DNA from: Faecalibacterium sp. I4-3-84 | GTDB taxonomy: Bacteria > Bacillota > Clostridia > Oscillospirales > Ruminococcaceae | Length of the DNA: 64,000 bases | Direction of reading: 5' to 3' | Assembly (NCBI RefSeq): GCF_023347255.1 | Contig: NZ_CP094466.1 | Coordinates: forward strand, 2,666,001 to 2,730,000 | Shown here: positions 28,561 to 56,411 of the stretch, one piece after another | How positions within the stretch are numbered: position 1 is the stretch's first letter | Layout: each line of letters begins with the position of its first letter | The notes under the pieces: generated by a model | The model's database searches: none | What the model was told of the DNA's origin: nothing | What the model saw: the letters and a program-made list of their open reading frames with translations, nothing else | Translations under genes and position numbers: made by a program

Positions 28561-29739
28561 TTGAAACTATTTGCAATCGGAAATGGAAGCGTATCGGATT
28601 ACTTAAGAAGCAACATCAGTTCATTAAAAGATAAAATCGCTTCATACACTGACGAACAGATAATGAACAGCGATTTTGATGAATGGGTTGAATATCTTAC
28701 GAAAAAGTATCAGGTTGAACCTATTACCTTTTTCGTTAATGCAACTACAAGAAGTTTGCATGAAACAACCATTCAACAGTACAATCCATGGAGCAGGATG
28801 GGAAGTGCCTATGGAGAGCCTGAATATTACAACTTGGATGGCTATAACATTGACTTCAAAATTCCCTTTGCTGGTGATTCGGTTCTTCTTAAATGCCAAC
28901 CGTCCACTTATACATTCACAAGTTATGAAATCGTAGACTTTCAACGCTCGACAGAGAGTAGCTATGGCTATATCACAATTCGCTTGTCTTATACAAACCA
29001 AGAAATAAAATCTTTTGGTGAGCAGCTAGAAGAAAAGATTGACACCGCTTTCAAAAACCGATTCAAAAATTTTGAAGAAACGAGTGGCTATGTAAACAAC
29101 GAAGTTCGCAGCTATAATGAGCAGTTGGAATCAACAGTTCGGCAACTGTTAAATGAACGGAAAAATAAAGCATCAGACTTCTTTTCAATTAGCAAGGCAT
29201 TGAAAATTCCACTCAATCTAAACTCGTCTGCACCTAATTTGACTCCTATTCCCTTAAAGAAACCACATCGGGCAAACCTGAACGAACCTAAGCAGCACGC
29301 ACCCGAAAAGCAATTCTTGAAGCGCAATGGTCGAGGTTGCGATGATAACCGGCTTGTTCATGCGTTTGCTGTACAGCAGCACCGGCACAAGATAGCCAAA
29401 GGACTTTCCAATGCCCACGCCAGCTTCAATCGCAAAATGCTGATCGTTTATGAGGGCGTCCACAATCTCAAAGGACATATCCTGCTGCCCTTCACGCATT
29501 TCCAAGCCATGCTGCGGGGCTTCATCCCAAAAGAAGGTGCTGACTTGCTCACTCATGGAGTACAGCTCTGCTTTTCTGCGCTTTTTCCGTTCCTCCGATG
29601 TATTGAATCCAAAATAGAATCTGTTGTCCATCCATATTCCTCCCGGAATAGAAACCAAGGCTATCCGCGTTTCAGCTCAATGCTGACGTTTCCGTTCTCG
29701 TCGATAGTCAGCGTCATGTGCCTGATGTGCTTCTCATAG
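28561..29739 (+). pseudogene. RM-associated hypothetical protein, 3'-truncated
   Basis: Starts at TTG 28561 after AAAGGAG. About 247 codons look like a real gene: charged, AT-rich, with a long coiled-coil stretch (about 155-205) and an LTPIPLKK segment. I do not recognise the family. From about 29300 the frame runs antisense over a DinG-like helicase fragment, so the last 145 codons are accidental. The gene diverges from the methyltransferase and may be an accessory of the restriction module whose C-terminus was removed at the segment border. Confidence 0.6.
29254..29631 (-). pseudogene. DinG-like helicase, N-terminal fragment
   Basis: From ATG 29631 (RBS GGGAGG) the protein begins MDNRFYFGFNTSEERKKRR and shows REGQQDMSFEIVDAL (Q-motif-like) and the P-loop EAGVGIGKSFGYLVPVLLY, followed by IIATSTIALQE, all typical of DinG/XPD-type helicases. 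Homology stops at about 29310, where the border with the type II RM segment lies. Only about 107 of the usual 650-900 residues remain, so it cannot work as a helicase. Confidence 0.78.
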
Positions 29740-31052
29740 AACTGCCGCCGCTCTGCGGGAGACATTTCGATCCTCGTGTTTCGCAGAGCTGTATCAAACA
29801 TATCGTTGACATTCAGGTGAACGGAGTTGTCAATCCAGCGGTACATCTCCTTGAACAGTGCGTTTTTCTTGATGTCCTCGCTGTTGCCGGAGTAGAAGTC
29901 ATCCAGATAGCAGTAGAATATCCCAGATTCTGAAAGTGCCGCCTTCATATCCGGTCCGCATTTTTCCCGCTCAATCATGACAAGGAATCTGGCGTCCGGT
30001 AAGGAAGAGATCAGCCCCCAGTAGTCGGAATCGCTTGAGACGATGACGAAGGAATCCACTTGCTTCTGGTAGTGTTCCTGACAGGCTCTTGCGGTGAGCT
30101 TGATGTCTACCAGTGATTTGTTCTGCTTGATCCGCTCAATCATGATATGTTCAACGGGGATGCGGGTGTAGTTTTCAAGAATCCGCCATGCCGTAGCGGT
30201 GTGTACATCATCAAAGAGAATGATCGCCGTAATCTTCTGCATGACCTCATAATCAAGATTTTTGAGCGTGGCGCACAGCTTGTACGGGTCGGAGTTTTCG
30301 CAGTCCACTACCAATACGGTCTTCTCACTGTCATCTATGAAGTCGTAGATATTGTTTTTTACAAAAGCCCCTGCATCGGAGACTTTACTGTATTCCGTGA
30401 AGGCGTCGCAATGCCATTGATAAAGCAGGGTAGCAAACTTCTTGTCATTATAGAGGACATTACCCTCGTCCATCGGTACCCAGTTGATGTACATTTGATA
30501 GGGGTAGTAGGAGAGACTTGCGTAATAGATGTCCGCAGCATCTTTCGTTCCGTCCTCTGTCAAGCCGTTTGGCATAATGAACAGCTCTTTTATGTACGCC
30601 CAGTTAATCCAGATTGGAAAGAGGCTTTTGCAGTTGTTAATGCGGTCTGAAATCAGCCGGTTGATCTCGATAATGTGGTGGCAGAGCTTTGTACTCGACT
30701 TTTTAATAAAGCTGATTCCGTCATTTGAAAGCTGCTGCATACTGGACATTGGAAGGATCTCAGGCATCGAAAGAAGCCCACGGTATTCCATCCGCATGAT
30801 GTCATTTATTTTCCGGTAGTTGCGCTCAATGGCGGTGCGGATGATACATAGATTACGAATGATACGGGCATTTTTATCCTGTTCAAGCCGGTTGTATATC
30901 TCTATCTTCGGCGGCTCGTGTTCATTTTGGAAAATACGAAGCGGGACGCCGATCAGGTAAGCGACCTTTGACACAAGCTCATAGGTGCTGTCTTTGTAGG
31001 CAATCTGTTCTCCGGCATATTCGATGCCATTCAACATGACTGAATTGCCCAT
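29661..31052 (-). CDS. NYN-domain (PIN-like) putative ribonuclease
   Basis: A 463-aa protein. The central region (about 240-385) has a NYN/PIN-like pattern: TVLVVDCENSDPYKL (acidic DxE), IKQNKSLVDIKLTARACQEH (Asp), and FVIVSSDSDYWGLI (DSD). These acidic residues form the metal site of NYN nucleases. The N-terminal 230 residues are helical and unassigned. It lies 29 bp upstream of the helicase fragment in the same direction, and the two may once have worked together. RBS AAAGGAG before ATG 31052. Confidence 0.75.
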   Translation of the reverse strand: MGNSVMLNGIEYAGEQIAYKDSTYELVSKVAYLIGVPLRIFQNEHEPPKIEIYNRLEQDKNARIIRNLCIIRTAIERNYRKINDIMRMEYRGLLSMPEILPMSSMQQLSNDGISFIKKSSTKLCHHIIEINRLISDRINNCKSLFPIWINWAYIKELFIMPNGLTEDGTKDAADIYYASLSYYPYQMYINWVPMDEGNVLYNDKKFATLLYQWHCDAFTEYSKVSDAGAFVKNNIYDFIDDSEKTVLVVDCENSDPYKLCATLKNLDYEVMQKITAIILFDDVHTATAWRILENYTRIPVEHIMIERIKQNKSLVDIKLTARACQEHYQKQVDSFVIVSSDSDYWGLISSLPDARFLVMIEREKCGPDMKAALSESGIFYCYLDDFYSGNSEDIKKNALFKEMYRWIDNSVHLNVNDMFDTALRNTRIEMSPAERRQFYEKHIRHMTLTIDENGNVSIELKRG

Positions 31053-31078: not shown

Positions 31079-34000
31079 TTAAGCGGTCATTACATTGTCC
31101 GTCCACATCTCACACTGGCTCATGACAGTCTGGACAGCATCATCCATACCCTCTGGCGGATATTTGTGTTTTTTCAGCAACCTTTTGACCAGGCGGCGCA
31201 TTCCAGCTCTTGCGCTCTCTTTCTTTTGCCAGTCTATTGTCTGGTTTTTGCGAAGCAAATCTGTCAGTTCTTTCGTGATAGCAATAAGCTCGTCATGCTC
31301 GTAAAAGTCCTTGATTGCTTGCGGCTTTGTGAGGGCATCATAGAAAGCAAGCTCGTCCGCTGTCAATCCGAGTTTTTCACCCTCGGCGGCAGCAGCGGCA
31401 ATGTCTTTCGCCAGCTTGAGTAATTCTTGAATGACTTCCTCGTTGGTCAACATTCCGTTCAAATAGCGGTTCATTGCGCTCTGAATGATTTCGGAGAACT
31501 TCTCGGATTTGACAATGTTTGTACGACGATAAACAGATACTTGTTCAGCAATCAGCTTTTTCAGAAGTTCGACTGCCAGATTCTTCTCCTTCATGTTTGC
31601 CACTTCTTCAAGGAACTTCGGATCGAACAACGAAAACTCAGTCTGGACATCGGAGAAGAGGTTGATAACGCCTTCGCTCTTGATGCTGTGCTTCAATAGC
31701 TCGTTAATGCGCTCATTTACTTCCGGAAGCGTAAACTTCTTTCCGGTACCGCCTGAAACCAAGCGCACGGTCATTGTTCTTACGGACTCGAAGAAAGCCG
31801 CCTCCATGCGAGTTTGCTCGTCTACCAAACTGCTGCACAGCGAAAGTGCCTGCTTGAGAAGTAGCGCTTCTTTGATAAACACATTCTGTGTCTTCTCATT
31901 GTCGGGAAGATCGTACTCTGCAACACTCTTGCCGAGTATGAAGTTCACGCCGCCGCTGATAAGCTTTGCACGGTCGAGGTCGCTTCCGGTCATGAATTTC
32001 TCATAACTGAATCCGTGGAACAAATCTCTGCAAATAGAGAGCTTTTCAAGGAACTTCGGATATGCAGCCTTGCTTACATCTGTATCACCATAGTTCTTCT
32101 TGTCTCTGGCAGTATAGTCGTTCATTGCCTGTTTCAGTGCAGCCGCAATACCGACGTAATCAACAACCAAACCGCCTTCTTTATCTTTGAAGACACGATT
32201 GACGCGGGCGATAGCTTGCATCAGGTTGTGTCCAGCCATTGGCTTATAGACATACATCGTAGCGAGGGAGGGAACATCAAAGCCGGTCAGCCACATATCC
32301 ACGACGATAGCGATTTTCAGCGGGGAGTTATTGTCTTTGAATTTCCGCGCCATATCGTCCTTATGAGCTTTGTTGCCGATAATCTCACGCCATTCTTCGG
32401 GATCGTTATTGCCTTGCGTCATGACCACTGCAATCTTTTCCGTCCACGCTGGGCGTAGCTCAAGAATGCGCTTATAAATCTTCATTGCTATGGGACGCGA
32501 ATAAGCAACGATCATCGCCTTGCCGGTTAGGATATTCTCACGGTAATTCTCGTAATGATCAAGAATGTCATTTACCAAGGAATTGATCGTCTGGTCGGCA
32601 CCGAGGATTGCTTCCATCTGACCAAGTTCCTTTTTGCTCTTTTCAATGACATACGGATCGGCGTTGTCAGCCATAATGTCATACTCATTATCGATCAGAT
32701 GGAGGGTGTTCTCGTCGAGTTTCAGGTGAATCACACGGCTCTCGTAGTAGACGGGTCTGGTCGCGCCATCTTCAACTGCCTGAGTCATATCATAGATGTC
32801 GATGTAATCACCGAAGACCTCTCGTGTACTGCGATCTTTTGTGGAGATCGGTGTTCCGGTGAATCCAATGTAGGTCGCATTAGGAAGCGTGTCTCTTATA
32901 ATGCGGGCAGTGCCTATAACGGTTTTCGCCTCGACTTCGCCGTTGTCCTTCTGCTTGACCACAACCTTCTCATTAAGACCATATTGCCCACGATGCGCTT
33001 CATCAGCCATCACGATAATGTTCCGGCGTTCCGAAAGAGCTTCGTTGCTTTCTTCAAACTTCTGCATGGTCGTGAAGATTATGCCGTTTGCCTGTCTGTT
33101 TGCAAGCAGTTCTTTGAGATTCTTGCGGCTCTCAGCGTGCTGCGGCGTTTGCCGGAGGAAGTCCTTGCAGCGGGCAAATTGTCCGTAAAGCTGGTCGTCC
33201 AGATCGTTACGGTCGGTAATGACAACGATAGTGGGGCTTTCTAACGCTTCTTGCAGATAATGAGCATAGAAGACCATAGACAACGATTTTCCGCTGCCCT
33301 GTGTATGCCAGAAGACGCCACCCTTACCGTCCGTCACGGTTGCGTGTTTTGTAGACTCAATCGCCTTTTTGACTGCGAAATACTGATGATACCCGGCGAG
33401 TATCTTGAAAGTATTCTGTCCATCCACATTAAAGCAGATGAAGTTTTTCACGATGTCAAGGAAGCGGGTCTTCTCAAACAGTCCTACAAAGAATGTGTCA
33501 AATGATGCGTGTTGCGTATTCTCATAGCTGCCGTCTGTTGTTTTCCACTCCATAAAGCGGTCTTCGCCGGACGTGATTGTACCAGCCTTTGAAGTGGTCA
33601 AGTCGCTCATGACACATACCGCATTATAAATGAACATAGAGGGGATCTCATACATATAGTTCCGGAGCTGGCGGTATGCTGCGGAAGCGTCGGTTTCCTC
33701 GCGGGACGGAGACTTCAACTCCACAATGACGAGCGGGAGACCATTGACAAAGAGAATCACATCTGGTCTTTTTTCGGAGTTCTCAATGAAAGTCCATTGA
33801 TTCGCAACTGTGAACTCGTTACTGGCAGGATTTTTGAAGTCTACAAGGTAAACAAGGGTAGAGCGTTCTTCACCCTTGTCATAGTATTTTACCGGGACTC
33901 CGTTTTGGAGGTAGTCCATAAATACCATGTTCTTCTGCAAGAGCGTTCCGGTTTCAAAGTTCTTGAGCTTATAGGTTGCCTCCGTCAGAGCATCCATTGG

Positions 34001-34168
34001 CAAGTTTTTGTTGATTCGCTGCAAAGAGGGCAGCAGGACATCCTCATAAAGCGGAGAGTGATAATCGCGCTCCACATCCGGTCCATAGACATAGGTATAT
34101 CCAAGCTCCTCATTGAGAAGCTGCAAGACGGCATTCTCATAATTTGATTCGGTAAAATAGCCCGACAT
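31079..34168 (-). CDS. hsdR: Type I restriction enzyme R subunit (motor and nuclease)
   Basis: A full-length 1029-aa HsdR of the EcoR124 type. N-terminal nuclease: Asp136 in RPDVILF and ExK at 150-152 in IVELKSPS. Motor: Walker A TQGSGKS (289-295), DEAH 389-392, GFTGTP (435-440), and late motifs (IVVDMWLTGFDVPSLATMYVYKP, LMQAIARVNR). It cleaves unmethylated DNA after translocation with HsdM and HsdS. It is the last gene of the leftward hsd cluster, 16 bp after the 500-aa gene. RBS AGGGAG. Confidence 0.95.
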   Translation of the reverse strand: MSGYFTESNYENAVLQLLNEELGYTYVYGPDVERDYHSPLYEDVLLPSLQRINKNLPMDALTEATYKLKNFETGTLLQKNMVFMDYLQNGVPVKYYDKGEERSTLVYLVDFKNPASNEFTVANQWTFIENSEKRPDVILFVNGLPLVIVELKSPSREETDASAAYRQLRNYMYEIPSMFIYNAVCVMSDLTTSKAGTITSGEDRFMEWKTTDGSYENTQHASFDTFFVGLFEKTRFLDIVKNFICFNVDGQNTFKILAGYHQYFAVKKAIESTKHATVTDGKGGVFWHTQGSGKSLSMVFYAHYLQEALESPTIVVITDRNDLDDQLYGQFARCKDFLRQTPQHAESRKNLKELLANRQANGIIFTTMQKFEESNEALSERRNIIVMADEAHRGQYGLNEKVVVKQKDNGEVEAKTVIGTARIIRDTLPNATYIGFTGTPISTKDRSTREVFGDYIDIYDMTQAVEDGATRPVYYESRVIHLKLDENTLHLIDNEYDIMADNADPYVIEKSKKELGQMEAILGADQTINSLVNDILDHYENYRENILTGKAMIVAYSRPIAMKIYKRILELRPAWTEKIAVVMTQGNNDPEEWREIIGNKAHKDDMARKFKDNNSPLKIAIVVDMWLTGFDVPSLATMYVYKPMAGHNLMQAIARVNRVFKDKEGGLVVDYVGIAAALKQAMNDYTARDKKNYGDTDVSKAAYPKFLEKLSICRDLFHGFSYEKFMTGSDLDRAKLISGGVNFILGKSVAEYDLPDNEKTQNVFIKEALLLKQALSLCSSLVDEQTRMEAAFFESVRTMTVRLVSGGTGKKFTLPEVNERINELLKHSIKSEGVINLFSDVQTEFSLFDPKFLEEVANMKEKNLAVELLKKLIAEQVSVYRRTNIVKSEKFSEIIQSAMNRYLNGMLTNEEVIQELLKLAKDIAAAAAEGEKLGLTADELAFYDALTKPQAIKDFYEHDELIAITKELTDLLRKNQTIDWQKKESARAGMRRLVKRLLKKHKYPPEGMDDAVQTVMSQCEMWTDNVMTA

Positions 34169-34184
34169 TTGTACTCAACTCCCT

Positions 34185-35687
34185 CTATATAATATCCGCA
34201 TAGATGCGGTTTTCAGCTTTTGTGAAGATTACCTCAGCAGGAAATAAATCTTCTCCTGTATTTGCCATTGAAACCAGCGTCATTGCCCATTCGTTCAACT
34301 GTACAGGCAGCCTATAACATAGATTTTCAGGTGATGCCTCAACAGTGACTAATGGGATGCCGCCCTTTGCAATACCGACAGAAAGAACTACAAAGGCGTT
34401 TTTTCCTTTGGTGAGTTCCAGAATGGGTTGTCTGTCTACATCGTGATAAACTTTTGCGCCGCGTCGATTCCTAAAAAAACCCTTTTCTTGATCTTTCACC
34501 GGCTCAACAGGCAGCTTATTTTTCATCTGCTCAAAATGGGTTTCAAGTCTTTGGCAGATGCAGCTATTACAATACTCCGGTTGCATATCAAAGTCTTGTT
34601 CGATGTCTTTAGCTGAATTGAAATGATTCATGAAATCCAGCAGTCCCAAAAAGCTAACAAGGTCATCTGAATAATTACCGGCATAGACCTTATACCAATC
34701 ATTGTTGATCTCAAACACGATATGAAAAAGCTGCTTGTATAGCTGTAACTGCCCATCGGTTAGTCTGAACCATTCTTTGCTAAGAAGAGTCTTCGCAATG
34801 CGGGGACTGTCCTGCGTCGGTGTCAAGGAATGGTATAGCGATTTCATCAGTTTGCCGATAATTCCTACCAGCATATCAGCCATTCTAATTCCAAAGTGGT
34901 CTATCGAGTCTGCCTCTTCGCAATTCTTCAAACTGGCTTCTTTCGCGGCAATGAGAGTTTTGCTTTCGGCTCCTGCTTCACCTTCCTTGTCAAGCAAGAC
35001 TGAATAATCAAGAATGCCCTTGCTGCTCAGGAAATTTCCAAACCCGACAAACTGCAAATGGTAGTCCCAAGCGAGGGACTGCGGAACATCGACGTTATTC
35101 AGGACATAAAGGACGGCTTCAAATGCCGTGTTTTCCTGCGCCTTCAATTCGCGGTTTTCTTTGTTACGACTAATCCGGTTCGTCAAGAATGTCATTAACG
35201 CAGCTACAAACTCCGCCGGACTTTTATACAGGCTTTCAATTACCTCTGTGGGTCGGTATGTAACTATCGCTTTGACTATTGAGTAGCGTGCAGCGTCCAT
35301 ATCAAAGAAGACGCTATTGCGATAGCCTTTGAAAATCTGGGTGATAACGTATTCGATTTTGCTTGCACAGAACAGATAGATATAGCTGTTCTCATCAAAG
35401 ATGGAGAAGAAATCTCCAAGCAGCTTTACATTTGCTTCGTTGAGAGAGGCAAATCCATGAACTAACTGCTTCGGCTTTATCGTTCCGCTTTTCAGCTCTC
35501 CTTTTTTCTTCCTATCAGCGTATTTTTCTTCAAAAGCATGATAACGCTGTTCAAAAGCTGTTTCGTGATCGCTGCGCCACCCAATAATAGCTGCCAGAAA
35601 ACCATCATAATACGTCTCGCCAGTAACGGTTGAGAGATTGATGACCCTGCTATGCTCAGACTCATCGTAGTAAAAGCAGTATTGCAT
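34185..35687 (-). CDS. DUF3800-like protein within the hsd cluster
   Basis: A 500-aa protein that starts with YYFYYDES-like sequence (CFYYDESEHSRVINL), the acidic signature of DUF3800 proteins, which are thought to have an RNase H-like fold. The middle is helical (NRISRNKENRELKAQENTAFEAVLYVLNNV). A cysteine pair (CNSCICQ) lies at about 375. It sits between hsdS and hsdR with short spacers (35 and 16 bp), so it should be co-expressed with the restriction enzyme. Whether it is a fourth subunit, a repair factor or a passenger is not known. Confidence 0.6.
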   Translation of the reverse strand: MQYCFYYDESEHSRVINLSTVTGETYYDGFLAAIIGWRSDHETAFEQRYHAFEEKYADRKKKGELKSGTIKPKQLVHGFASLNEANVKLLGDFFSIFDENSYIYLFCASKIEYVITQIFKGYRNSVFFDMDAARYSIVKAIVTYRPTEVIESLYKSPAEFVAALMTFLTNRISRNKENRELKAQENTAFEAVLYVLNNVDVPQSLAWDYHLQFVGFGNFLSSKGILDYSVLLDKEGEAGAESKTLIAAKEASLKNCEEADSIDHFGIRMADMLVGIIGKLMKSLYHSLTPTQDSPRIAKTLLSKEWFRLTDGQLQLYKQLFHIVFEINNDWYKVYAGNYSDDLVSFLGLLDFMNHFNSAKDIEQDFDMQPEYCNSCICQRLETHFEQMKNKLPVEPVKDQEKGFFRNRRGAKVYHDVDRQPILELTKGKNAFVVLSVGIAKGGIPLVTVEASPENLCYRLPVQLNEWAMTLVSMANTGEDLFPAEVIFTKAENRIYADII

Positions 35688-35703: not shown

Positions 35704-35717
35704 TAAACGATAATTTA
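35704..35717 (+). repeat. Inversion site 1 (TAAACGATAATTTA)
   Basis: One of four exact copies of a 14-bp site in the hsdS region. This one lies just past the stop of the active hsdS and is inverted relative to the copy at 36299. Confidence 0.8.
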
Positions 35718-35722
35718 GCGGC

Positions 35723-36853
35723 TTAGAGTTGGATGTCAGAGACGTCTATCTCGCCGGACATGAGCTTCGGCAGCAGTGTATCACGCATTTGGGACAGTGC
35801 TTTCGATTGAACATCGTTTGCTTCCATAGCCTCATACATTGGCGCAACCAGAGATTCAAACTCTTCAAGGGCTGACGCGGAGGGAATGACAACTTCCATC
35901 GCATTCAATATATCCGTTGTCATGCTTGGAACGGCGGATCCAGCATTCATTGATGCGAGGTCTTTTGCCTTGACAAAGTGATATACAAACTTCGCTACAT
36001 TCGGAAGTTTCATTTCGGTGTAGAACATGGTGTCAACAGACCAAAACGGTTGATTGACATACATGACGTTGTTCAGAGTCCCTTTTCTTGGAATCAGAAC
36101 TGATTCCTTATTATACAGAGGGCGCTCAACATAGCGCATTATCCCACCAGAGCCATAGACGGGATAGATACCATCAGCTAATTTCTTGTGGTCTTTACCG
36201 TATTTTACGGTTATGAGATCAGATAGATGTCCATGCGACCATGCAGGATCAGGGTTATCAATGAACATTGAAGAGTAAATCGCCTGAGCCTGCTGCTGTA
36301 AATTATCGTTTATCTTTATGTTGTTCTCGATCTTGTCGTTTATCGTCTCTACAATGCTTGCAATTCGCCTTTGCTCTTGAAGGCTCGGCAAACAAAGACG
36401 AATTTTTTTGAAGTTTTTGAGTGGTTGCGATAACGCAGGTACTCCCGTTTGGTTAGCAAACGATAGTATCTTGTTTTGACCTTCAAATGTATGAAAGTAA
36501 AACACAAGATACGGAACATAGACCATAGAAGAATCGAAAGACACGCGGAACTGTCGTTGTGAGCAAAGGTATTCATCATACAATGAATTTTCCGGAATAT
36601 ATGCTATTTGCCCAATCGTACCACTGATTGTAACAATCACATCTCCGCGATGTGCAATCGATCTGCTCAGCGAACGAGCCTTTTCCTCTGTAACGAATTT
36701 AGTTATGTTGTCAGTGACCTTGTACCCTTTTAAGTTCGCTCCATCAATGATAGGGAAGCCACTTGGGACAAAACACTCGACTTTCAGATTTGATCCAAAT
36801 GGTCCTGCGGCTATATCTGTAATCGCAGTAGACAATTCAATTTCTTTGCCCAT
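35723..36853 (-). CDS. hsdS: Type I restriction specificity subunit, complete (N1-C1)
   Basis: A 376-aa HsdS with two target-recognition domains. Half 1 (about 1-180) ends in the conserved helix KIENNIKINDNLQQQAQAIYSS; half 2 follows and ends in LRDTLLPKLMSGEIDVSDIQL. The DNA encoding INDNL is one copy of the 14-bp inversion site (36299-36312), placing the recombination point exactly between the halves. It forms the methylase with HsdM and sets the sequence recognised. It reads from ATG 36853, 13 bp downstream of the tyrosine recombinase. Confidence 0.9.
   Translation of the reverse strand: MGKEIELSTAITDIAAGPFGSNLKVECFVPSGFPIIDGANLKGYKVTDNITKFVTEEKARSLSRSIAHRGDVIVTISGTIGQIAYIPENSLYDEYLCSQRQFRVSFDSSMVYVPYLVFYFHTFEGQNKILSFANQTGVPALSQPLKNFKKIRLCLPSLQEQRRIASIVETINDKIENNIKINDNLQQQAQAIYSSMFIDNPDPAWSHGHLSDLITVKYGKDHKKLADGIYPVYGSGGIMRYVERPLYNKESVLIPRKGTLNNVMYVNQPFWSVDTMFYTEMKLPNVAKFVYHFVKAKDLASMNAGSAVPSMTTDILNAMEVVIPSASALEEFESLVAPMYEAMEANDVQSKALSQMRDTLLPKLMSGEIDVSDIQL
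36299..36312 (-). repeat. Inversion site 2 (inside active hsdS)
   Basis: Exact copy of the 14-bp site (TAAATTATCGTTTA on the + strand) at the junction of the two HsdS halves. Confidence 0.85.
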
Positions 36854-36865
36854 CTTTACACCATC

Positions 36866-37849
36866 CTAACCAATGTATTTTCTATGTGCCAGCTTCACAT
36901 TCTGTTGTTTCACCATTGCATAGTGCATGGTGGTATCGATTTTCTGATGCCCTAAGAGCTGCTGGACTTGCTCTATGGGCATTCCTTTGTCTATGGCAGT
37001 AGTAGCCAGTGTGCGCCTGAACTTGTGAGGGTGAACCTTCGGGATATTCAGACGCTTTCCCATCTCCCGAAGGCGTGTCTCCACTCCGCCAATCATCAAT
37101 CGGTCGAAGGGAGCTTTCAGGGAAACAAACAAAGCCGGGTTTTCATCCGATCTGCCCTCAAGATAGTTTTGAAGGTGGATCTTCGTCCTTGCATCGAAGT
37201 AGACCAATCGTTCCTTATTGCCCTTGCCGATAACCACGCATTCGCGTTCGTTGAAGTTGATGTCTTCGCGGTTTAGCGTGACCAGTTCTCCAACACGCAT
37301 TCCGGACGAAGCCAGAAGATCAACCATAGCCAAATCACGCGCCGTTGTACAGTTGTCGCGCATCAGCTCCAACGCTTCATCGGTGTAGGTGTCCTTAACA
37401 ACCTTTGCGGTTTTAACTTTGTGAATCCGGCGTACCGGACTTTTCACGATGAAGTCCTCATCCTCAAGCCAAGAGAAGAAACTGGACAGGATCCGGCGGA
37501 TGTTGTCTATGGTCACTTTACTCGACCTGCGCTGAACCTGATAGTTGGTTAGATAGCGGCGCAAATCATCTGTGGTGACCTGTTGCACAGCCTTTCCGAC
37601 TCCGGCAATCAGAGATTCAATCGTCTTCCGGTAGTAGCTCAGGGTTTTCTCTGAGCAGCCTTCGATCCGCTTTGCCGTGATAAATGCTTCGACTGCATCT
37701 GTTTCTTCTGCTGGAATTGAGCCACTATCATAGGTGATCGTTGCCCCTTCCAATGTCTCAGCCATTGCATCCCGAAGGTGCATGAGCTGTTCGTTGTTAA
37801 GATACGGCAGCATTTTTCGCTGTATCTCCGTGATGAGTTGTTCTGTCAT
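36866..37849 (-). CDS. Tyrosine recombinase of the hsdS inversion locus
   Basis: A 327-aa XerC/XerD-like integrase. The N-terminal SAM-like domain (AVEAFITAKRIEGCSEKTLSYY) is followed by the catalytic domain with Arg in SSGMRVGEL, HxxR in HPHKFRRTL, the late LLGHQKIDTTMHYAM with His and the nucleophile Tyr. It lies between two sets of hsdS halves flanked by identical inverted 14-bp sites, so its likely work is switching the specificity gene. RBS AAAGGAG before ATG 37849. Confidence 0.92.
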   Translation of the reverse strand: MTEQLITEIQRKMLPYLNNEQLMHLRDAMAETLEGATITYDSGSIPAEETDAVEAFITAKRIEGCSEKTLSYYRKTIESLIAGVGKAVQQVTTDDLRRYLTNYQVQRRSSKVTIDNIRRILSSFFSWLEDEDFIVKSPVRRIHKVKTAKVVKDTYTDEALELMRDNCTTARDLAMVDLLASSGMRVGELVTLNREDINFNERECVVIGKGNKERLVYFDARTKIHLQNYLEGRSDENPALFVSLKAPFDRLMIGGVETRLREMGKRLNIPKVHPHKFRRTLATTAIDKGMPIEQVQQLLGHQKIDTTMHYAMVKQQNVKLAHRKYIG

Positions 37850-37938
37850 TGTCGTGTCTCCTTTCGAGGTAAGAGAACGACATTCAGTGGCAGTCCCTTT
37901 TGTAAAACTCTCGCCACTGGTGAGAGTTATTCAGGCGG

Positions 37939-37952
37939 TAAACGATAATTTA
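37939..37952 (+). repeat. Inversion site 3 (start of silent C2 half)
   Basis: Exact copy of TAAACGATAATTTA, inverted relative to the copy at 38585. Confidence 0.85.
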
Positions 37953-38579
37953 CAGCAGCAAGCAGCCGCATTGTTTTCGAGCCTCTATGATCGGTCAAAC
38001 ACCGAGGTTAGATTCACCGATTTGATACAGATACTCGGCGGTGGGACACCAAAAACAGGCGAAAATACTTATTGGAACGGTAATATTGCCTTCTTTACCC
38101 CAAAAGATGTTGGCACACCATACACACTTATCACAGAAAAGACTATCTCAAAAGAAGGTCTTTCACATTGTAACAGCCGACTGTATCCTGTGAACACCGT
38201 TTTCGTCACTGCAAGAGGCACTGTTGGTAAAGTTGGTATGTCCGGAGTTCCGATGGCTATGAACCAATCCTGCTATGCGCTTGTCGGTAAAGAGACGCAT
38301 CAACTTCTTGTATATTTCTACACACTCAAAGCTGTTGATAGGCTCAAGCACAAAGCAAGTGGAGCCGTATTTGATGCGATTACCACCAGAGATTTTGAAT
38401 CAGAGCAAATCATGAAACTCTCTGATGATGATGCTACGGCGTTTCTCCGTGTTGCAGAGCCCATGTTTCAGGAGGTGCTTAACAACAACATCGAAAACTT
38501 GCGACTTTCAACACTACGGGATTCATTGCTGCCTAAGCTCATGTCAGGCGAGATAGACGTCTCTGCCGTCCAGCTCTAA
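37939..38579 (+). pseudogene. hsdS: Silent hsdS C-terminal half (C2 cassette), inverted
   Basis: Starts at the 14-bp site with NDNLQQQAAALFSSLYD, carries one target-recognition domain (LIQILGGGTPKTGENTYWNG ... NTVFVTARGTVGKVG), and ends LLPKLMSGEIDVSAVQL, nearly the same tail as the active gene. It has no start codon or RBS and points opposite to the rest of the cluster. Inversion of 37939-38598 would join it in frame to the N-terminal half at 39079. It is a stored cassette rather than a decayed gene. Confidence 0.85.
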
Positions 38580-39079
38580 GCCGCTAAATTATCGTTTATC
38601 TTCTTATTGACTGTAATCCGATCATCAATGCTTCTTAGCAACTTACCAATACGAAGTTGAGTCTCGTGAGTGAAACATGGGACCTCGTATTGCATAATCG
38701 CGGTTTTGTCGCCTCTTGGCATCTTTGTCCCCTTAGACGTAGCAGAAGCATAATTGAAAAACGCATCATTAGCTAAGACGTAGTATAAAAATGTCGAGTC
38801 ACACCCGCACTCTGCTCTGAAAACAAGAACATCATTTGAACACCCGCCATCATCATCCGCCATCCAGATTTTCTTGAAATATGGGCGGATATTGGAAACT
38901 AATATATCGTCTTTCATGTACTGCTGGGTATATTGGGCAGAAGGCAATGCTCCTGCATCAACAATACCGCCTTTGTTTGGCACCATATTCTCAGTGGAAA
39001 CATAGTTTCGTTTAGATAGAGTATCAACTGATACTTTTCCTTTAGCGTAGGAACACAGAGAGCTAAGTTCAGATGTCAT
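38576..39079 (-). CDS. hsdS: HsdS N-terminal half only (N2)
   Basis: A 167-aa single-TRD specificity protein. It begins MTSELSSLCSYAKGK, overlaps the hsdM end by 11 bp, and ends RITVNKKINDNLAA: the last codons run through the 14-bp site and meet a stop supplied by the inverted C2 cassette. Half-HsdS proteins of this kind can in some systems dimerise and still guide methylation, so it may not be silent. After inversion it would become a full HsdS (N2-C2). Confidence 0.85.
   Translation of the reverse strand: MTSELSSLCSYAKGKVSVDTLSKRNYVSTENMVPNKGGIVDAGALPSAQYTQQYMKDDILVSNIRPYFKKIWMADDDGGCSNDVLVFRAECGCDSTFLYYVLANDAFFNYASATSKGTKMPRGDKTAIMQYEVPCFTHETQLRIGKLLRSIDDRITVNKKINDNLAA
38585..38598 (-). 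repeat. Inversion site 4 (end of N2, downstream of C2)
   Basis: Exact copy of the 14-bp site (TAAATTATCGTTTA on the + strand); it encodes part of INDNL in the N2 frame. Confidence 0.85.
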
Positions 39080-40571
39080 ATCCAATCGCCCCCAGTCGTT
39101 CTTTGATCTGCGCTTCAAGTTCATGAGACTTAGTGAAAAGCTCAGACAGTTCAGAAGTCAGGCGTCCCATTTTCTCTTCAAACGGCTCACCGTCATCTTC
39201 TTGTTCCTCAATGCCAACATAGCGTCCCGGAGTAAGAATGTAGTCCTGCTTTGCAATGTCCTGAGTAGTAACAACCGCACAGAAGCCTTTCTCGTCTTCA
39301 AGTGTTCCTTCAACGAAGGCATTGTAGGTGTCAGCAATTTTTCTGATGTCTTCATCCGTCAGCTCACGCAGCTTCCGCGTGACCATAGTACCGAGTTTCC
39401 GTGCGTCGATGAATAGCGTCTTTCCTTTCTGTTTCTTGTTCTTTGCAAGGAACCAGAGCGATACCGGAATCTGCGTCGTGTAGAATAACTGCGTCGGCAT
39501 TGCGACGATACAGTCCACAAGGTCGGCATTGATAATGTTCTTGCGGATTTCACCTTCACCGCCGGACTGCGAGGAAAGCGAACCATTTGCAAGAACCATA
39601 CCGATACGCCCATTCGGGGCGAGATGCCAGATCATGTGCTGCAACCACGCGAAGTTTGCATTTCCAGCAGGAGGCGTACCATACTGCCAACGGACATCAT
39701 CAACGAGTTTATCCGCACCCCAGCCGGAGAGATTGAAGGGAGGATTTGCCATAATGAAGTCTGCCTTGAGTTGAGGGTGGCAGTCGTTAAAGAACGTGTC
39801 CGCATTAAACTTGCCGAGGTCGGCTTCAATACCGCGAATGGCAAGATTCATCTGCGCCATCTTCCATGTGGTCGGGTTGGAGTCCTGACCAAAAACGGAA
39901 ATCTTGTTGATGTTGCCGCCGTGATTCTCGATGAACTTTGCAGACTGAACGAACATACCGCCAGAGCCGCAGCATGGGTCATAAACACGTCCATTAAACG
40001 GCTGCAACACCTCAACAAGGGTACGCACAACACAAGAGGGTGTATAGAACTCACCAGCAAGTTTACCTTCTTGCTCAGCAAACTTGGAGAGACAGTATTC
40101 GTATGTACGACCGAGAATGTCCTTGCTGTTTCCATGTTCGATCATCTGAATGTTGGTGAAGAGATCAACCACTTCACCAAGACGCCGCTTGTCCAGCTCT
40201 GGACGGGCGAAGTTCTTAGGAAGAATATCTTTGAGGCGCTTGTTTTCTTTCTCGATACTGCGCATTGCGTCATCAATCACCGTGCCAATTTCCGGCGTGT
40301 GAGCGGCAGCAGCAATCGCACTCCATCGTGCATTCTCAGGGACAAAGAAGATGTTTTCGGCAGTGTATTCGTCCTGATCCTCTTCAAATCCATCGCCTTC
40401 CTCGACCAGTTCCTTGTACTTTGCCTCGAAGCGATCAGAAATGTATTTCAAGAAAATCAATCCAAGAACGACGGACTTGTATTCGGATGCGTCGATGTTT
40501 CCGCGCAGGACGCAAGCCGCGTCCCAGATTTGTTTTTCAAAGCCGATATTGCTTGTGTTATTCTCAGCCAT
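39069..40571 (-). CDS. hsdM: Type I methyltransferase subunit
   Basis: A 500-aa N6-adenine methyltransferase: N-terminal HsdM helical domain, SAM motif YDPCCGSGGM (197-206) and catalytic NPPF (276-279, ANPPFNLSGWG). It is needed both for protection and, with HsdS and HsdR, for restriction. I set the start at ATG 40571 (8 bp after GGAGG) instead of the TTG five codons upstream. It follows a small XRE gene and overlaps the N2 half-hsdS. Confidence 0.93.
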   Translation of the reverse strand: MAENNTSNIGFEKQIWDAACVLRGNIDASEYKSVVLGLIFLKYISDRFEAKYKELVEEGDGFEEDQDEYTAENIFFVPENARWSAIAAAAHTPEIGTVIDDAMRSIEKENKRLKDILPKNFARPELDKRRLGEVVDLFTNIQMIEHGNSKDILGRTYEYCLSKFAEQEGKLAGEFYTPSCVVRTLVEVLQPFNGRVYDPCCGSGGMFVQSAKFIENHGGNINKISVFGQDSNPTTWKMAQMNLAIRGIEADLGKFNADTFFNDCHPQLKADFIMANPPFNLSGWGADKLVDDVRWQYGTPPAGNANFAWLQHMIWHLAPNGRIGMVLANGSLSSQSGGEGEIRKNIINADLVDCIVAMPTQLFYTTQIPVSLWFLAKNKKQKGKTLFIDARKLGTMVTRKLRELTDEDIRKIADTYNAFVEGTLEDEKGFCAVVTTQDIAKQDYILTPGRYVGIEEQEDDGEPFEEKMGRLTSELSELFTKSHELEAQIKERLGAIGYDI

Positions 40572-40640
40572 TTCAGCAACCTCCAAAGTTATAGTTTCAC
40601 ACTTACTATTTTACAAAAAGAGCTGTACGAAAAACCGGAC

Positions 40641-40862
40641 TTAATTCTTGTCCGTTCGCACAGCCTCACATATATCTCCGATGTCACAGTTCAGGTAATC
40701 ACAAATGCGCAGCAAAATAGAGAGGGACACTTCTTCCCCCTTATTCAGTTTTGTCCATGTTCCGGCAGACAGCCCTACCTCATGTCGTAGAGAAGCCCTC
40801 TTTATGTCGCGTTCCAGAAGAAGCATCCATAGTTTCTTATAGCTTATGCGCACGGCAACCAT
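40641..40862 (-). CDS. Small XRE/Cro-type regulator upstream of hsdM
   Basis: A 73-aa helix-turn-helix protein (ISYKKLWMLLLERDIKRASLRHEVGLS ... NKGEEVSLSILLRICDYLNCDIGDI), the short Cro/C1 type common beside mobile and restriction genes. It is 69 bp upstream of hsdM in the same direction and may act as a controller of the hsd operon. ATG 40862 has its AAAGG almost touching; GTG 40853 has better spacing and may be the true start. Confidence 0.82.
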   Translation of the reverse strand: MVAVRISYKKLWMLLLERDIKRASLRHEVGLSAGTWTKLNKGEEVSLSILLRICDYLNCDIGDICEAVRTDKN

Positions 40863-40897
40863 CCTTTCACTTGCTTGCATTCAACATCGCTTATAAT

Positions 40898-40926
40898 ATT
40901 ATACCGGATTTCATTCTCAAAAGCAA
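40898..40926 (-). promoter_or_regulatory. Sigma-A promoter for XRE-hsd operon
   Basis: Read leftward: TTGCTT, 17 bp, TATAAT, 35 bp before the XRE start. A second TATAA-like repeat (TTATAA) lies just downstream. Confidence 0.6.
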
Positions 40927-40984
40927 TCCGTTGATGCAAAAATTAAAGAAAAAGTTTCAACTTCTCGAACCTTCTCTCAAGGAT

Positions 40985-41018
40985 GCAGGGCATCTCCGGT
41001 CAACAGAAGATGCCCTGC
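40985..41018. terminator. Hairpin after the relaxase gene
   Basis: GCAGGGCATC / GATGCCCTGC, a perfect 10-bp stem with a 14-nt loop, 12 bp beyond the relaxase stop. The T-run (TTTT) is on the + side, so on the minus strand it is a weaker or factor-aided terminator. Confidence 0.55.
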
Positions 41019-41029
41019 TTTTGAAGAGA

Positions 41030-42394
41030 TTATTCGCGCTGTGTGCTGCGCAGATGATCACGGTCATGGTCAACAGAAGGAGCGAGAAACGTATCAACAT
41101 TAGACTTGATCGTCTCTATGTGCTTCGCTTCTTTTTTGAGCTTCGCACGTTCATCATAGAGCCGTTGCTGCTCTTCAAGAAGTCGCTGCTGTTCCGCTTG
41201 CAGTGTCTTCAAGCTCGGCAGTTTTTCATCGCCCTGCATGGCAAGAAGCGTACTCCGCGCCGCCTCAAAGATCACAAGCTCTGCCTCGTGCTTTGCCTTG
41301 AAGCTCGGCTTATCCTTCGCCTTCTGGAAGGCGTCATACACGGGCTTGAGCCGCTGATAGTTGGAGATATTCTTGATAAGCGGCTGGACTTCACGCAGAC
41401 GTGCTTCCACAGCTTTCAGTTCCTTGCCGGTGCGGTCATAGGAGCCGTGAACATCCTCAACCTTCTTCTCAAGATCAGCGTATTGGAGCAAGTTGTTTTC
41501 CGTGAGATAGTTGAGCGTCCGTGCCGCTTCCTTGAGGATTGTGAGCTTGGCTTTATACTCATAGCCCTTGCTGTCGATGAGCCTGATCCGCTCCTGAATA
41601 TCTCCGATAAGGGAGATGCCATTCGGCACGGTCTGTCTCTGGCTTCTTCGGGGCGTCCGTCCGGCAATTCGTTCCTTGATGCGTTCCTCTGTGTAGTTCT
41701 CTCCGATGGTTTTAGAACGGGTAAACCGCTCCTGACCTTCAGCACGGAAGGAGATGTATTTGCCGGTCTTTATTTCATAACCGGCTTCCTGCATGAGCCG
41801 AAGGAAGTCATCATAGTCTTTGGCGGTGATGACAAGCCGATCGATGGTCTGCTTGAGCTTTTGCTTCCAACTCGTGCCGCGTTTGGCTTCTGTGTACTCT
41901 TTGTAGTCCATGCCTTTGTTCTGAGAGGGAGGGATAACAGAGAGACCGTTTTCCTTACAGAGCCGGTCGCTGACCTCGCGCATATCATAGTAAATCCGCT
42001 TGTAGCTCTTGTATGCGTGGTAGTCCACAAAGTCAACCGCATTGAAAATCAGATGGTTATGAACATGGTCTTTGTCAATGTGAGTGGTCAGCACATACTC
42101 ATATTTTCCTCCGAGGATTTCGTCTGCAAACTGCTTGCCGATCTCGTGGGCAAGCTCCGGTGTGACCTCTCCAATTTCAAAGGACTGGATCACATGACGG
42201 GCTATGATCCTGACCGGATTCATCCCTTTTTGCTCGGCTATTTTCCGCGTCCACTCAAATTCCCGCGCTGCGGTCTCGCTGGCACAGCCGTAGGACGAGA
42301 CCAGCAGCTTCTCATCGGTCTTTTCGGGATTCAGAATGTACGCGATTGCCTTGCTCAAAGTTCCTCGGATTGCTTTGATTTTAGTAACTGCCAT
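41030..42394 (-). CDS. mobA: MobA/VirD2-type relaxase
   Basis: A 454-aa relaxase that nicks oriT and leads DNA transfer. The N-terminal domain has AIAYILNPEKT (Tyr19 a candidate nucleophile; SSYG gives another at 35), the HVIQSF motif, and the metal-binding THIDKDHVHNH motif (His105, His110, His112, His114). A long coiled coil fills the C-terminal half (about 290-440). It overlaps mobC by 40 bp. It is the only relaxase in the window, so ICE B's transfer channel might rely on it or on a lost one. Confidence 0.92.
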   Translation of the reverse strand: MAVTKIKAIRGTLSKAIAYILNPEKTDEKLLVSSYGCASETAAREFEWTRKIAEQKGMNPVRIIARHVIQSFEIGEVTPELAHEIGKQFADEILGGKYEYVLTTHIDKDHVHNHLIFNAVDFVDYHAYKSYKRIYYDMREVSDRLCKENGLSVIPPSQNKGMDYKEYTEAKRGTSWKQKLKQTIDRLVITAKDYDDFLRLMQEAGYEIKTGKYISFRAEGQERFTRSKTIGENYTEERIKERIAGRTPRRSQRQTVPNGISLIGDIQERIRLIDSKGYEYKAKLTILKEAARTLNYLTENNLLQYADLEKKVEDVHGSYDRTGKELKAVEARLREVQPLIKNISNYQRLKPVYDAFQKAKDKPSFKAKHEAELVIFEAARSTLLAMQGDEKLPSLKTLQAEQQRLLEEQQRLYDERAKLKKEAKHIETIKSNVDTFLAPSVDHDRDHLRSTQRE

Positions 42395-55948: not shown

Positions 55949-56411
55949 TCAATCAGACCACTTCACTGCTCCTTGAAAACTGAATAGTTCAGTGCTGCGG
56001 ATCTTTCCGCTTCTGCGAAGCAACACAGCTTCCGACGCCAAGACCTCCCGAAAGGGAGTGAGCGACCTCCGGAGAGCTATAACAGTCGTGTGGTGCGGCT
56101 GCTTGCGACGATGCAGATGCCGGGTATAATGATACTTCCGTCTTTTCTTTGAATGGGCGGCTCGGAGCGATCCTCGGAGGGGTGAGAGTCCCATGATACC
56201 GATTGACCATTGGTAGTCCGCAGCATTCCCGGAACTGCAAAGTTCTTCTGGCAGGGGCGCGAGCTGCAAATATGCCGGACAATGAAACAAACCCAAAAGA
56301 AACTTACTATATAGTTTCAGGATGAAAACTATGTGGCAGAGTGTCTTCACAAGATGCTCTGCCATATCCTTTTGTCCTGAATATTTCCACGAAACAGGAG
56401 GTGCTTAGAAT
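55949..56411. other. 460-bp non-coding, hairpin-rich region
   Basis: No gene seen. Stem-loops include GAAACT/AGTTTC (about 56310-56330) and GGCAGAG-N15-CTCTGCC (56335-56363), the latter 50 bp before the TnpW-like gene; a possible TATAATGAT box lies at about 56125. Its place before the recombinase operon fits an attachment or regulatory region or a small RNA. Confidence 0.4.

Follow-up and report, generated by a model that had tools for sequence, protein, structure and literature searches.

Inverting hsdS loci make up about 6% of type I restriction–modification (RM) systems in a REBASE survey (PMC7394358) and have been detected from sequencing reads in 13 species (PMC5903667), the latter report also citing one of the older studies of hsdS shuffling in lactobacilli and lactococci. 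SsuCC20p of Streptococcus suis is described as requiring xerD for switching and as producing allele-specific methylomes (PMC10790761, mBio 2023). The same report places this form, with four identical sites and two active positions, in S. suis, S. agalactiae, and five other streptococcal species, finds exactly one complete hsdS in the complete-locus assemblies (22 isolates), and never sees xerD inverted in S. suis assemblies, though it is inverted in five cases elsewhere. Here, we analyse an hsdS locus of Faecalibacterium sp. I4-3-84 that lies in a 64-kb stretch of its genome (contig NZ_CP094466.1, positions 2,666,001 to 2,730,000; hereafter the window). Judged by its anatomy, the window locus is an SsuCC20p-like four-site switch. 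Its best explanation, to which we assign a probability of roughly 80%, is a four-state switch that would operate by paired exchange of cassettes and would leave the unused HsdS half tagged with a degron. This kind of switch is known from streptococci; added here are a family-wide rule of one complete hsdS per locus and the degron hypothesis.

On the minus strand, the operon reads hsdM, N2, site D, C2 (inverted), site C, recombinase, N1, site B, C1 (in sense orientation), site A, a gene for a 500-residue protein, and hsdR (Table 1). The four sites are exact 14-bp copies of TAAACGATAATTTA in alternating orientation at the boundaries of HsdS halves, as an initial annotation of this DNA had claimed, and scans of window and genome bear this out. 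The window holds no further match to TAAACGATAATTTA at up to two mismatches, while shuffled windows yield a mean of 0.43 matches and reach four in 0 of 100 cases; at up to one mismatch, the entire genome (3,119,411 bases) contains only these four, and the reversed-pattern control gives none. Longer inverted repeats extend over 95 nt between A and D (85%) and over 25 nt between B and C (96%). The gene between sites B and C codes for the tyrosine recombinase that the annotation had placed there, as its Pfam match and its NCBIfam XerA_Arch match (244.7 bits, cut-off 220) confirm. Residues 50–324 align with 4a8e, and the stretches GMRVGEL, GKGNKER, HPHKFRR, LLGH, and MHY, which we take to hold the catalytic R, K, H-R, H, and Y, are all present.

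The window is in the state N1-C1 on and N2 off, with a single complete hsdS. Translations and Methylase_S matches uphold the annotated set of one full HsdS, an N2 half with an early stop, and an inverted, stored C2. The match for N2 falls on a longer open reading frame (ORF; 38576–39124) that opens at ATG 39124; ATG 39079 was preferred as the likelier start because it overlaps less with the end of hsdM. C2 is enclosed by an ORF at 37734–38579(+) with its own Methylase_S match (E 1e-14); this ORF opens at GTG 37734, opposite the beginning of the recombinase gene on the other strand. Both N halves have a start of their own, as read from the sequence, one after hsdM and the other after the recombinase gene, where the ATG of N1-C1 follows at 12 bp. 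Read along the HsdS sense strand, TAAACGATAATTTA encodes I-N-D-N-L; the two N halves agree in the phase at which they enter the site, as do the two C halves in the phase at which they exit, so that all four N-C junctions are in frame. These junctions support the four specificities predicted in the annotation (N1 or N2 with C1 or C2), which also matches the characterised SsuCC20p. In the AlphaFold model of N1-C1 (pLDDT 90.3), the site residues 181–185 lie within a long helix (158–199), and a Foldseek search with this model returns solved HsdS structures at the top (1yf2, 1ydx, EcoKI 2y7c, and 3okg). In an alignment of 49 complete HsdS proteins (the window's and 48 of 67; mean column identity 25%), only six columns are invariant, four of them being I181, N182, N184, and L185; their invariance is partly by construction, since the sequences were chosen for having the site. 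The alignment of halves comprises the window half and 44 of 63.

Relatives of the recombinase define how widely this arrangement is followed. Matches at E 1e-80 or better occur in 20 of 396 genomes of the window's family and in 19 of 391 of its class, the window genome being counted in both. The comparison covers 136 loci, namely 80 genome contigs (kept from 184 relatives in a recombinase scan of the genome collection), 7 viral and 13 plasmid sequences, 35 further genome regions, and the window. Left out were 16 loci without a repeated core by the search expression, 29 without a four-site pattern in the searched span (several on cut contigs, and some with two, three, or five sites), and 8 identical duplicates. 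The remaining 83 unique four-site loci come from a broad range of Bacillota and, by their labels, from a few metagenome bins of other phyla; excluding 2 with a broken cassette leaves 81 typable loci. A site was accepted with at most one mismatch to the core of its locus. A flank was classed as S where a frame of at least 150 codons runs from the core into the cassette and otherwise as E, in the reading order D, C, B, A, such that ESSE means N1 on and N2 off, and SEES the reverse. L038 has six sites and two recombinase genes, which amounts to a tandem copy of the recombinase–N1–cassette unit.

Almost all of these loci carry exactly one complete hsdS. The classes are SEES in 42, ESSE in 36, ESES in 3, and SESE in 0 of the 83 loci, besides the 2 with a broken cassette. 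One complete hsdS is therefore present in 78 of the 81 typable loci, none in three (the double-off, ESES loci L070, L097, and L113), and two in 0 of 81. Independent flips would make half of the loci non-mirrored, compared with the 3 of 81 observed (binomial P 4e-20), which rules out independent flipping as a sufficient neutral account. At 95% identity, the recombinases form 58 clusters, of which 3 have a non-mirrored member and 6 contain both ESSE and SEES. The direction of hsdM is known in 79 loci; the recombinase is co-directional with it in 76 and reversed in L026, L074, and L111. For the initial annotation, this means that inversion among the sites stands as far as the anatomy goes, whereas free, independent inversion does not agree with the counts. 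Its idea of half-subunits as additional states is not sustained, as an N half is left unjoined in each one-on state and the double-off state is rare.

Comparison of close relatives reveals cassette movement. The Lactococcus plasmids pJM2A (L099) and pUCCL627F (L102) have 0 differences over 1500 bp upstream, 1580 bp between, and 1500 bp downstream of the cassettes, while their 635- and 650-bp cassettes, each identical, trade places; both plasmids are one-on, and pUC073A (L101) matches L099. A fourth plasmid, pJM1A (L100), shares the L099 backbone, is in state ESSE, and carries the 635-bp cassette in each of its two slots, as might result from homologous recombination between plasmid copies that differ in state. 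Between L077 and L116, the three backbone pieces differ at 1, 2, and 3 positions, and a common cassette (848 of 850 identical) sits in the same slot but in opposite orientation, whereas the cassettes of the other slot are different. The pair L016 and L017 has one cassette in common, which occupies opposite slots. Other close pairs in this comparison, e.g., the window with L005 or L007, have no common cassette at the threshold used. Moreover, the contigs L047, L054, and L058 end exactly at a core on both ends, and L069 does so to within one base. A forking assembly graph would produce such ends, which are thus an indirect sign of mixed arrangements. On the recombinase tree, which was built by a quick method and has 31 of 74 weak inner branches, the two on/off classes need 25 changes; SEES requires 26 changes compared with 27.2 in shuffles (190 of 500 as low), at least 12 of them forced by starred branches. 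As the state is unclustered on the tree, it changes often, though products of single flips are seldom seen.

The single arrangement in this strain's genome assembly would also fit a static relic, in which old repeats persist and the recombinase no longer acts. We consider this highly improbable, as the recombinase frame is open with its conserved stretches in place, the four sites are identical over 14 bp, cassettes have moved between near-identical relatives that show no or few substitutions, and the three contigs ending at cores on both sides are fork-like. The locus is real and well formed, and most probably active.

Strand exchange by tyrosine recombinases with homology testing needs a central stretch that is identical within a locus and variable between loci. 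Among the 83 loci, positions 1–4 and 10–14 of the locus core are invariant and positions 5–9 variable, the constancy being partly by construction, since the search expression required positions 2–4 and favoured 11–14. Within loci, departures from the core are confined to positions 1 (24 cases) and 14 (5 cases) among 332 sites. Further, the core type tracks the recombinase tree (21 changes versus 49 in shuffles). In the proposed mechanism, the recombinase would act on the inner 12 bp of the site to exchange cassettes.

These exchanges would be coupled in pairs over the four sites, each pairing leaving one complete HsdS. Four sites allow three pairings: starting from N1-C1, DC with BA gives N2-C2, DA with CB gives N1-C2, and DB with CA gives N2-C1. 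Every double exchange leaves one complete hsdS and preserves the direction of the recombinase, and the resulting orbit consists of four states. It holds 73 of the 79 loci with known hsdM direction, the six exceptions being the three double-off loci and the three with reversed recombinase. Single inversions, by comparison, link 16 arrangements; one complete hsdS is present in 12 of these (the recombinase being reversed in 8), two in 2, and none in 2. A rule by which like flanks pair (A with D, B with C) was rejected, as on its own it would leave about half of the recombinases reversed, versus the 76 of 79 found co-directional.

An alternative that we regard as somewhat improbable, but as a serious contender, is that cassettes flip independently and that selection removes cells with two complete hsdS, with none, or with a reversed recombinase, leaving only one-on states in the assemblies. 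It predicts the same class counts as concerted exchange, and the double-off loci L070, L097, and L113 indicate that single flips or their products can occur. Against it, no double-on locus occurs among the 81, though we know of no strong cost of carrying two specificities. Frequent class changes on the tree would imply intermediates that are often crossed, yet these are almost never sampled. In S. suis, the lack of two complete hsdS alleles in the long reads reported would likewise fit fast loss of such cells (PMC10790761). It is possible, too, that single-flip products are unstable and that their loss by deletion is the sole reason for their absence. Several points weigh against obligatory pairing: selection against zero or two complete hsdS predicts identical counts; three double-off and three recombinase-reversed loci are among those counted; and the S. 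suis authors speculate on coordinated recombination without offering proof (PMC10790761). In addition, because 53 of the 136 loci are uncounted, including more distant recombinase relatives (e.g., L134–L138), the one-on rule is shown only for loci with recognisable sites.

The unused N half has a conserved end. In the mechanism we propose, the off-oriented end of a cassette would close it two codons past the site with Ala-Ala-stop or Val-Ala-stop. Among 157 unique cassettes, the N half stops exactly two codons past the core in 136; the off-end residues are AA in 101 and VA in 35, the final residue is Ala in 147, and LAA forms the C-terminal tripeptide in 95 and LVA in 27. Of the 21 cassettes with another stop distance, 18 still end in AA, VA, or MA, with tails of 3, 5, 8, 9, 30, or 49 codons; in Lachnoanaerobaculum loci, the tail ends in SSLLAA after 49 codons. 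When unique off-ends are scanned for GYNGCTTRR without regard to frame, up to 60 bp from the core, 141 of 196 contain the motif, each time at a distance divisible by three (0, 3, 9, 12, or 18 bp). In 118 of the 157 cassettes, the sense stop precedes the core by 5 bp, and the flank bases are consequently non-coding on the sense strand; in the 141 off-ends with a two-codon tail, they are more conserved than the adjoining C-terminal codons. Where the far core supplies the sense stop as its first codon (18 cassettes), a two-codon Ala off-end is retained in 17 (13 AA, 3 VA, 1 YA), and the off-end stop is TGA in 14 of the 18. The flank is also kept in L013, L053, L077, and L116 despite a sense stop 204–209 bp away. 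The extra 204–209 bp between C-half stop and far core in these four loci look alike by eye.

Displaced ends in steps of three, sense stops in the far core, and distant sense stops point to coding selection on the tail. The bases GCGGCTTA beside the off-end core could instead be a DNA element of the recombination site, a reading we consider quite unlikely. It draws on the direct adjacency to the core in most cassettes (the 136 that stop two codons past it) and on conservation above the neighbouring C-terminal codons; against it, several lineages have the AA, VA, or MA end shifted by 3, 9, 18, 21, 84, or 141 bp, all multiples of three. Loci with displaced ends all follow the one-on rule except L113 (L032, also displaced, has a broken cassette), and the other flank of the same cassette lacks GCGGCTTA.

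According to the review PMC9382460, LAA is the common ending of SsrA tags and LVA a variant employed as a degron; half-HsdS proteins can be active on palindromic targets, as reported in PMC6158711 and PMC3320862. N2 ends in NDNLAA and thereby has the C-terminal LAA of an SsrA-like degron. The tmRNA tag of the host is DNNNSQLLAA, and clpX and clpP lie adjacent at 141809–143709 of the genome (clpX over its cut-off, clpP at 308.2 versus 308.6 bits). Because of the SsrA-like ends, the host tag in LLAA, the presence of clpX and clpP, and the activity known for half-HsdS proteins, we propose that the tail of the off half is a built-in degron clearing half-subunits. ClpXP would recognise the SsrA-like -LAA tail and remove the unused half; if left in place, this half could form a homodimer and so an unwanted enzyme with a palindromic target.

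The same activity of engineered halves suggests a different role, in which the off-state half is a functional, homodimerising subunit that adds palindromic specificities and LAA merely caps a helix. We deem this unlikely. In favour of such a role, N2 is predicted to fold well; on the other hand, the AA or VA end is preserved over displacements of 3 to 141 bp and resembles the SsrA end, and the S. suis methylomes are reported to be accounted for by the complete hsdS alleles (PMC10790761). The degron proposal has to face several further observations. In the AlphaFold model (pLDDT 93.4), the half appears well folded, with its tail at the end of the last helix (138–166 of 167 residues) and no obviously floppy tail, a geometry compatible with removal as well as with stability. 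The final bases are constrained in part because the C half's sense stop overlaps them, and common ancestry among cassette ends explains some of the conservation and inflates the counts. Finally, GYNGCTTRR is absent from 55 of the 196 off-ends, and the tail is missing in one L059 cassette and in both L117 cassettes.

Reports on HsdS turnover touch on this question. In Mycoplasma pneumoniae, most HsdS proteins, including the truncated MPN289, are raised on Lon depletion, and no clear degron was found for MPN201 (as described in PMC7737663). Our literature search on hsdS truncation with SsrA or ClpXP returned nothing on such a tail by title, and the searched text of PMC10790761 contains neither 'degrad' nor 'C-terminal' nor 'stop codon'. 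Among the papers listed (20 of 323 in one search and 25 of 40 in another, from a library with few subscription papers and no preprints), none describes the family outside streptococci or the tail, judged by title or the beginning of the abstract, which is weak evidence of absence. A search on partial hsdS with xerC and L. salivarius found nothing.

Taken together, we tentatively suggest, at somewhat less than even odds, that the one-on rule is enforced in two layers: obligatorily paired recombination over four sites, and an SsrA-like degron provided by the antisense end of the inverted cassette and cleared by ClpXP. The net outcome would be one of four specificities per cell, with switching between cells. 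If exchange is truly paired, it would be an unusual tyrosine-recombinase reaction over four sites of 12–14 bp. If the tail is a degron, it would explain how these loci avoid stray half-enzymes, and an inversion of DNA would tag a protein for destruction.

The surrounding genes complete the RM operon. The type I set of hsdR, hsdM, and hsdS is complete with open frames (Pfam, NCBIfam, and PADLOC), the start of hsdM being uncertain (its listed ORF opens at TTG 40586). The 500-residue accessory protein is without a Pfam or NCBIfam match and has a weak PADLOC match to PDC-S51 (E 9e-5). Only 16 bp separate site A from the ATG of its gene; exchange at site A would therefore alter its leader. Directly downstream of hsdR, and co-directional with it, lies a gene for a 463-residue NYN-domain protein (29661–31052(-)), a possible accessory nuclease. 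Just upstream of hsdM, 40641–42394(-) encodes a small HTH regulator, whose best NCBIfam match is VanU, under the cut-off, and a MobA/VirD2-type relaxase. Given these two adjoining genes, the RM locus may lie within a mobilizable element. Elsewhere in the window, a pemK RNA motif (56126–56196(+)) scores over the Rfam gathering threshold. A promoter and terminator scan yields 14 promoter-like sites (shuffles 8.2) and 8 terminator-like sites (shuffles 4.7), which we did not use.

Table 1. Features of the hsdS locus and its operon in the window (position 1 is the first base of the window)
Feature	Position	Strand	Basis or remark
hsdR, type I restriction subunit	31079..34168	-	TIGR00348 hsdR E 2e-179; PADLOC REase_I E 3e-298; Pfam HSDR_N and others
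500-aa accessory gene, between hsdS and hsdR	34185..35687	-	position; Lactococcus counterpart annotated DUF3800
Site A	35704..35717	+	just past C1 stop; E-type flank
N1-C1, complete HsdS, 376 aa, currently on	35723..36853	-	Pfam Methylase_S E 1e-21
Site B	36299..36312	-	N1-C1 junction
XerC/D-like tyrosine recombinase, open frame	36866..37849	-	Pfam Phage_integrase E 7e-33
Site C	37939..37952	+	C2 start; S-type flank (CAGCAGCAAGC)
C2, stored HsdS C-terminal half of 208 codons, opposite to N2 in orientation	37953..38579	+	translation
N2, N-terminal HsdS half, 167 aa, currently off	38576..39079	-	translation; tail ...NKKINDNLAA*
Site D	38585..38598	-	N2 end; E-type flank (GCGGCTTAG = Ala-Ala-stop)
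hsdM, type I modification subunit	39069..40586	-	Pfam N6_Mtase E 1e-111, HsdM_N 3e-28; PADLOC MTase_I E 2e-215

Among known systems, SpnIII/cod (ivr) of Streptococcus pneumoniae shares with the window a type I RM system, a locus-encoded recombinase, and hsdS inversions, and is described as having one of six specificities at a time (PMC7394358). In contrast, its repeats measure 15, 85, and 333 bp, and only the hsdS after hsdM is reported to be active in such systems (PMC10790761). SpnIV/tvr of the same species resembles the window in its recombinase-driven shuffling of target recognition domains (TRDs), with separate N- and C-terminal TRD elements (PMC6265443). Lmo0320I-type loci of Listeria monocytogenes also form four alleles from two N- and two C-terminal TRDs and contain a recombinase, while their second hsdS is described as inactive, without a proper start codon or promoter (PMC7662400). 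The window does not belong to this single-active-copy type of inverting hsdS (Listeria, Porphyromonas), as both of its N halves have starts and its sites lie centrally and after the C half, compared with a silent second hsdS that lacks a start and repeats located before the 5′ TRD and between the TRDs.

The plasmid pRV500 of Latilactobacillus sakei (NC_004942, L107) has a related recombinase (57.8%), a site of the same series, and an off half ending in INDNLAA*. It differs in being a two-site form (6393 and 7033), in which convergent N1 and N2 halves flank one cassette, and is perhaps a simpler or reduced relative. SsuCC20p matches the window in anatomy: it shares the four 14-bp inverted sites, xerD between them, and TRD2 and TRD4 each flanked by sites, and its hsdS is reported to be active either after hsdM or after xerD, giving the alleles A, D, E, and H (PMC10790761). 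Its site TAAATCATCATTTA belongs to the same TAAA......TTTA series as the window's and is also the site of the Lactococcus loci L099–L102, whose recombinase is 62.4% identical to that of the window. The core TAAACGATAATTTA, the host, and the TRDs are different in the window, and the 500-residue gene stands before hsdR, compared with two hypothetical genes named for S. suis.

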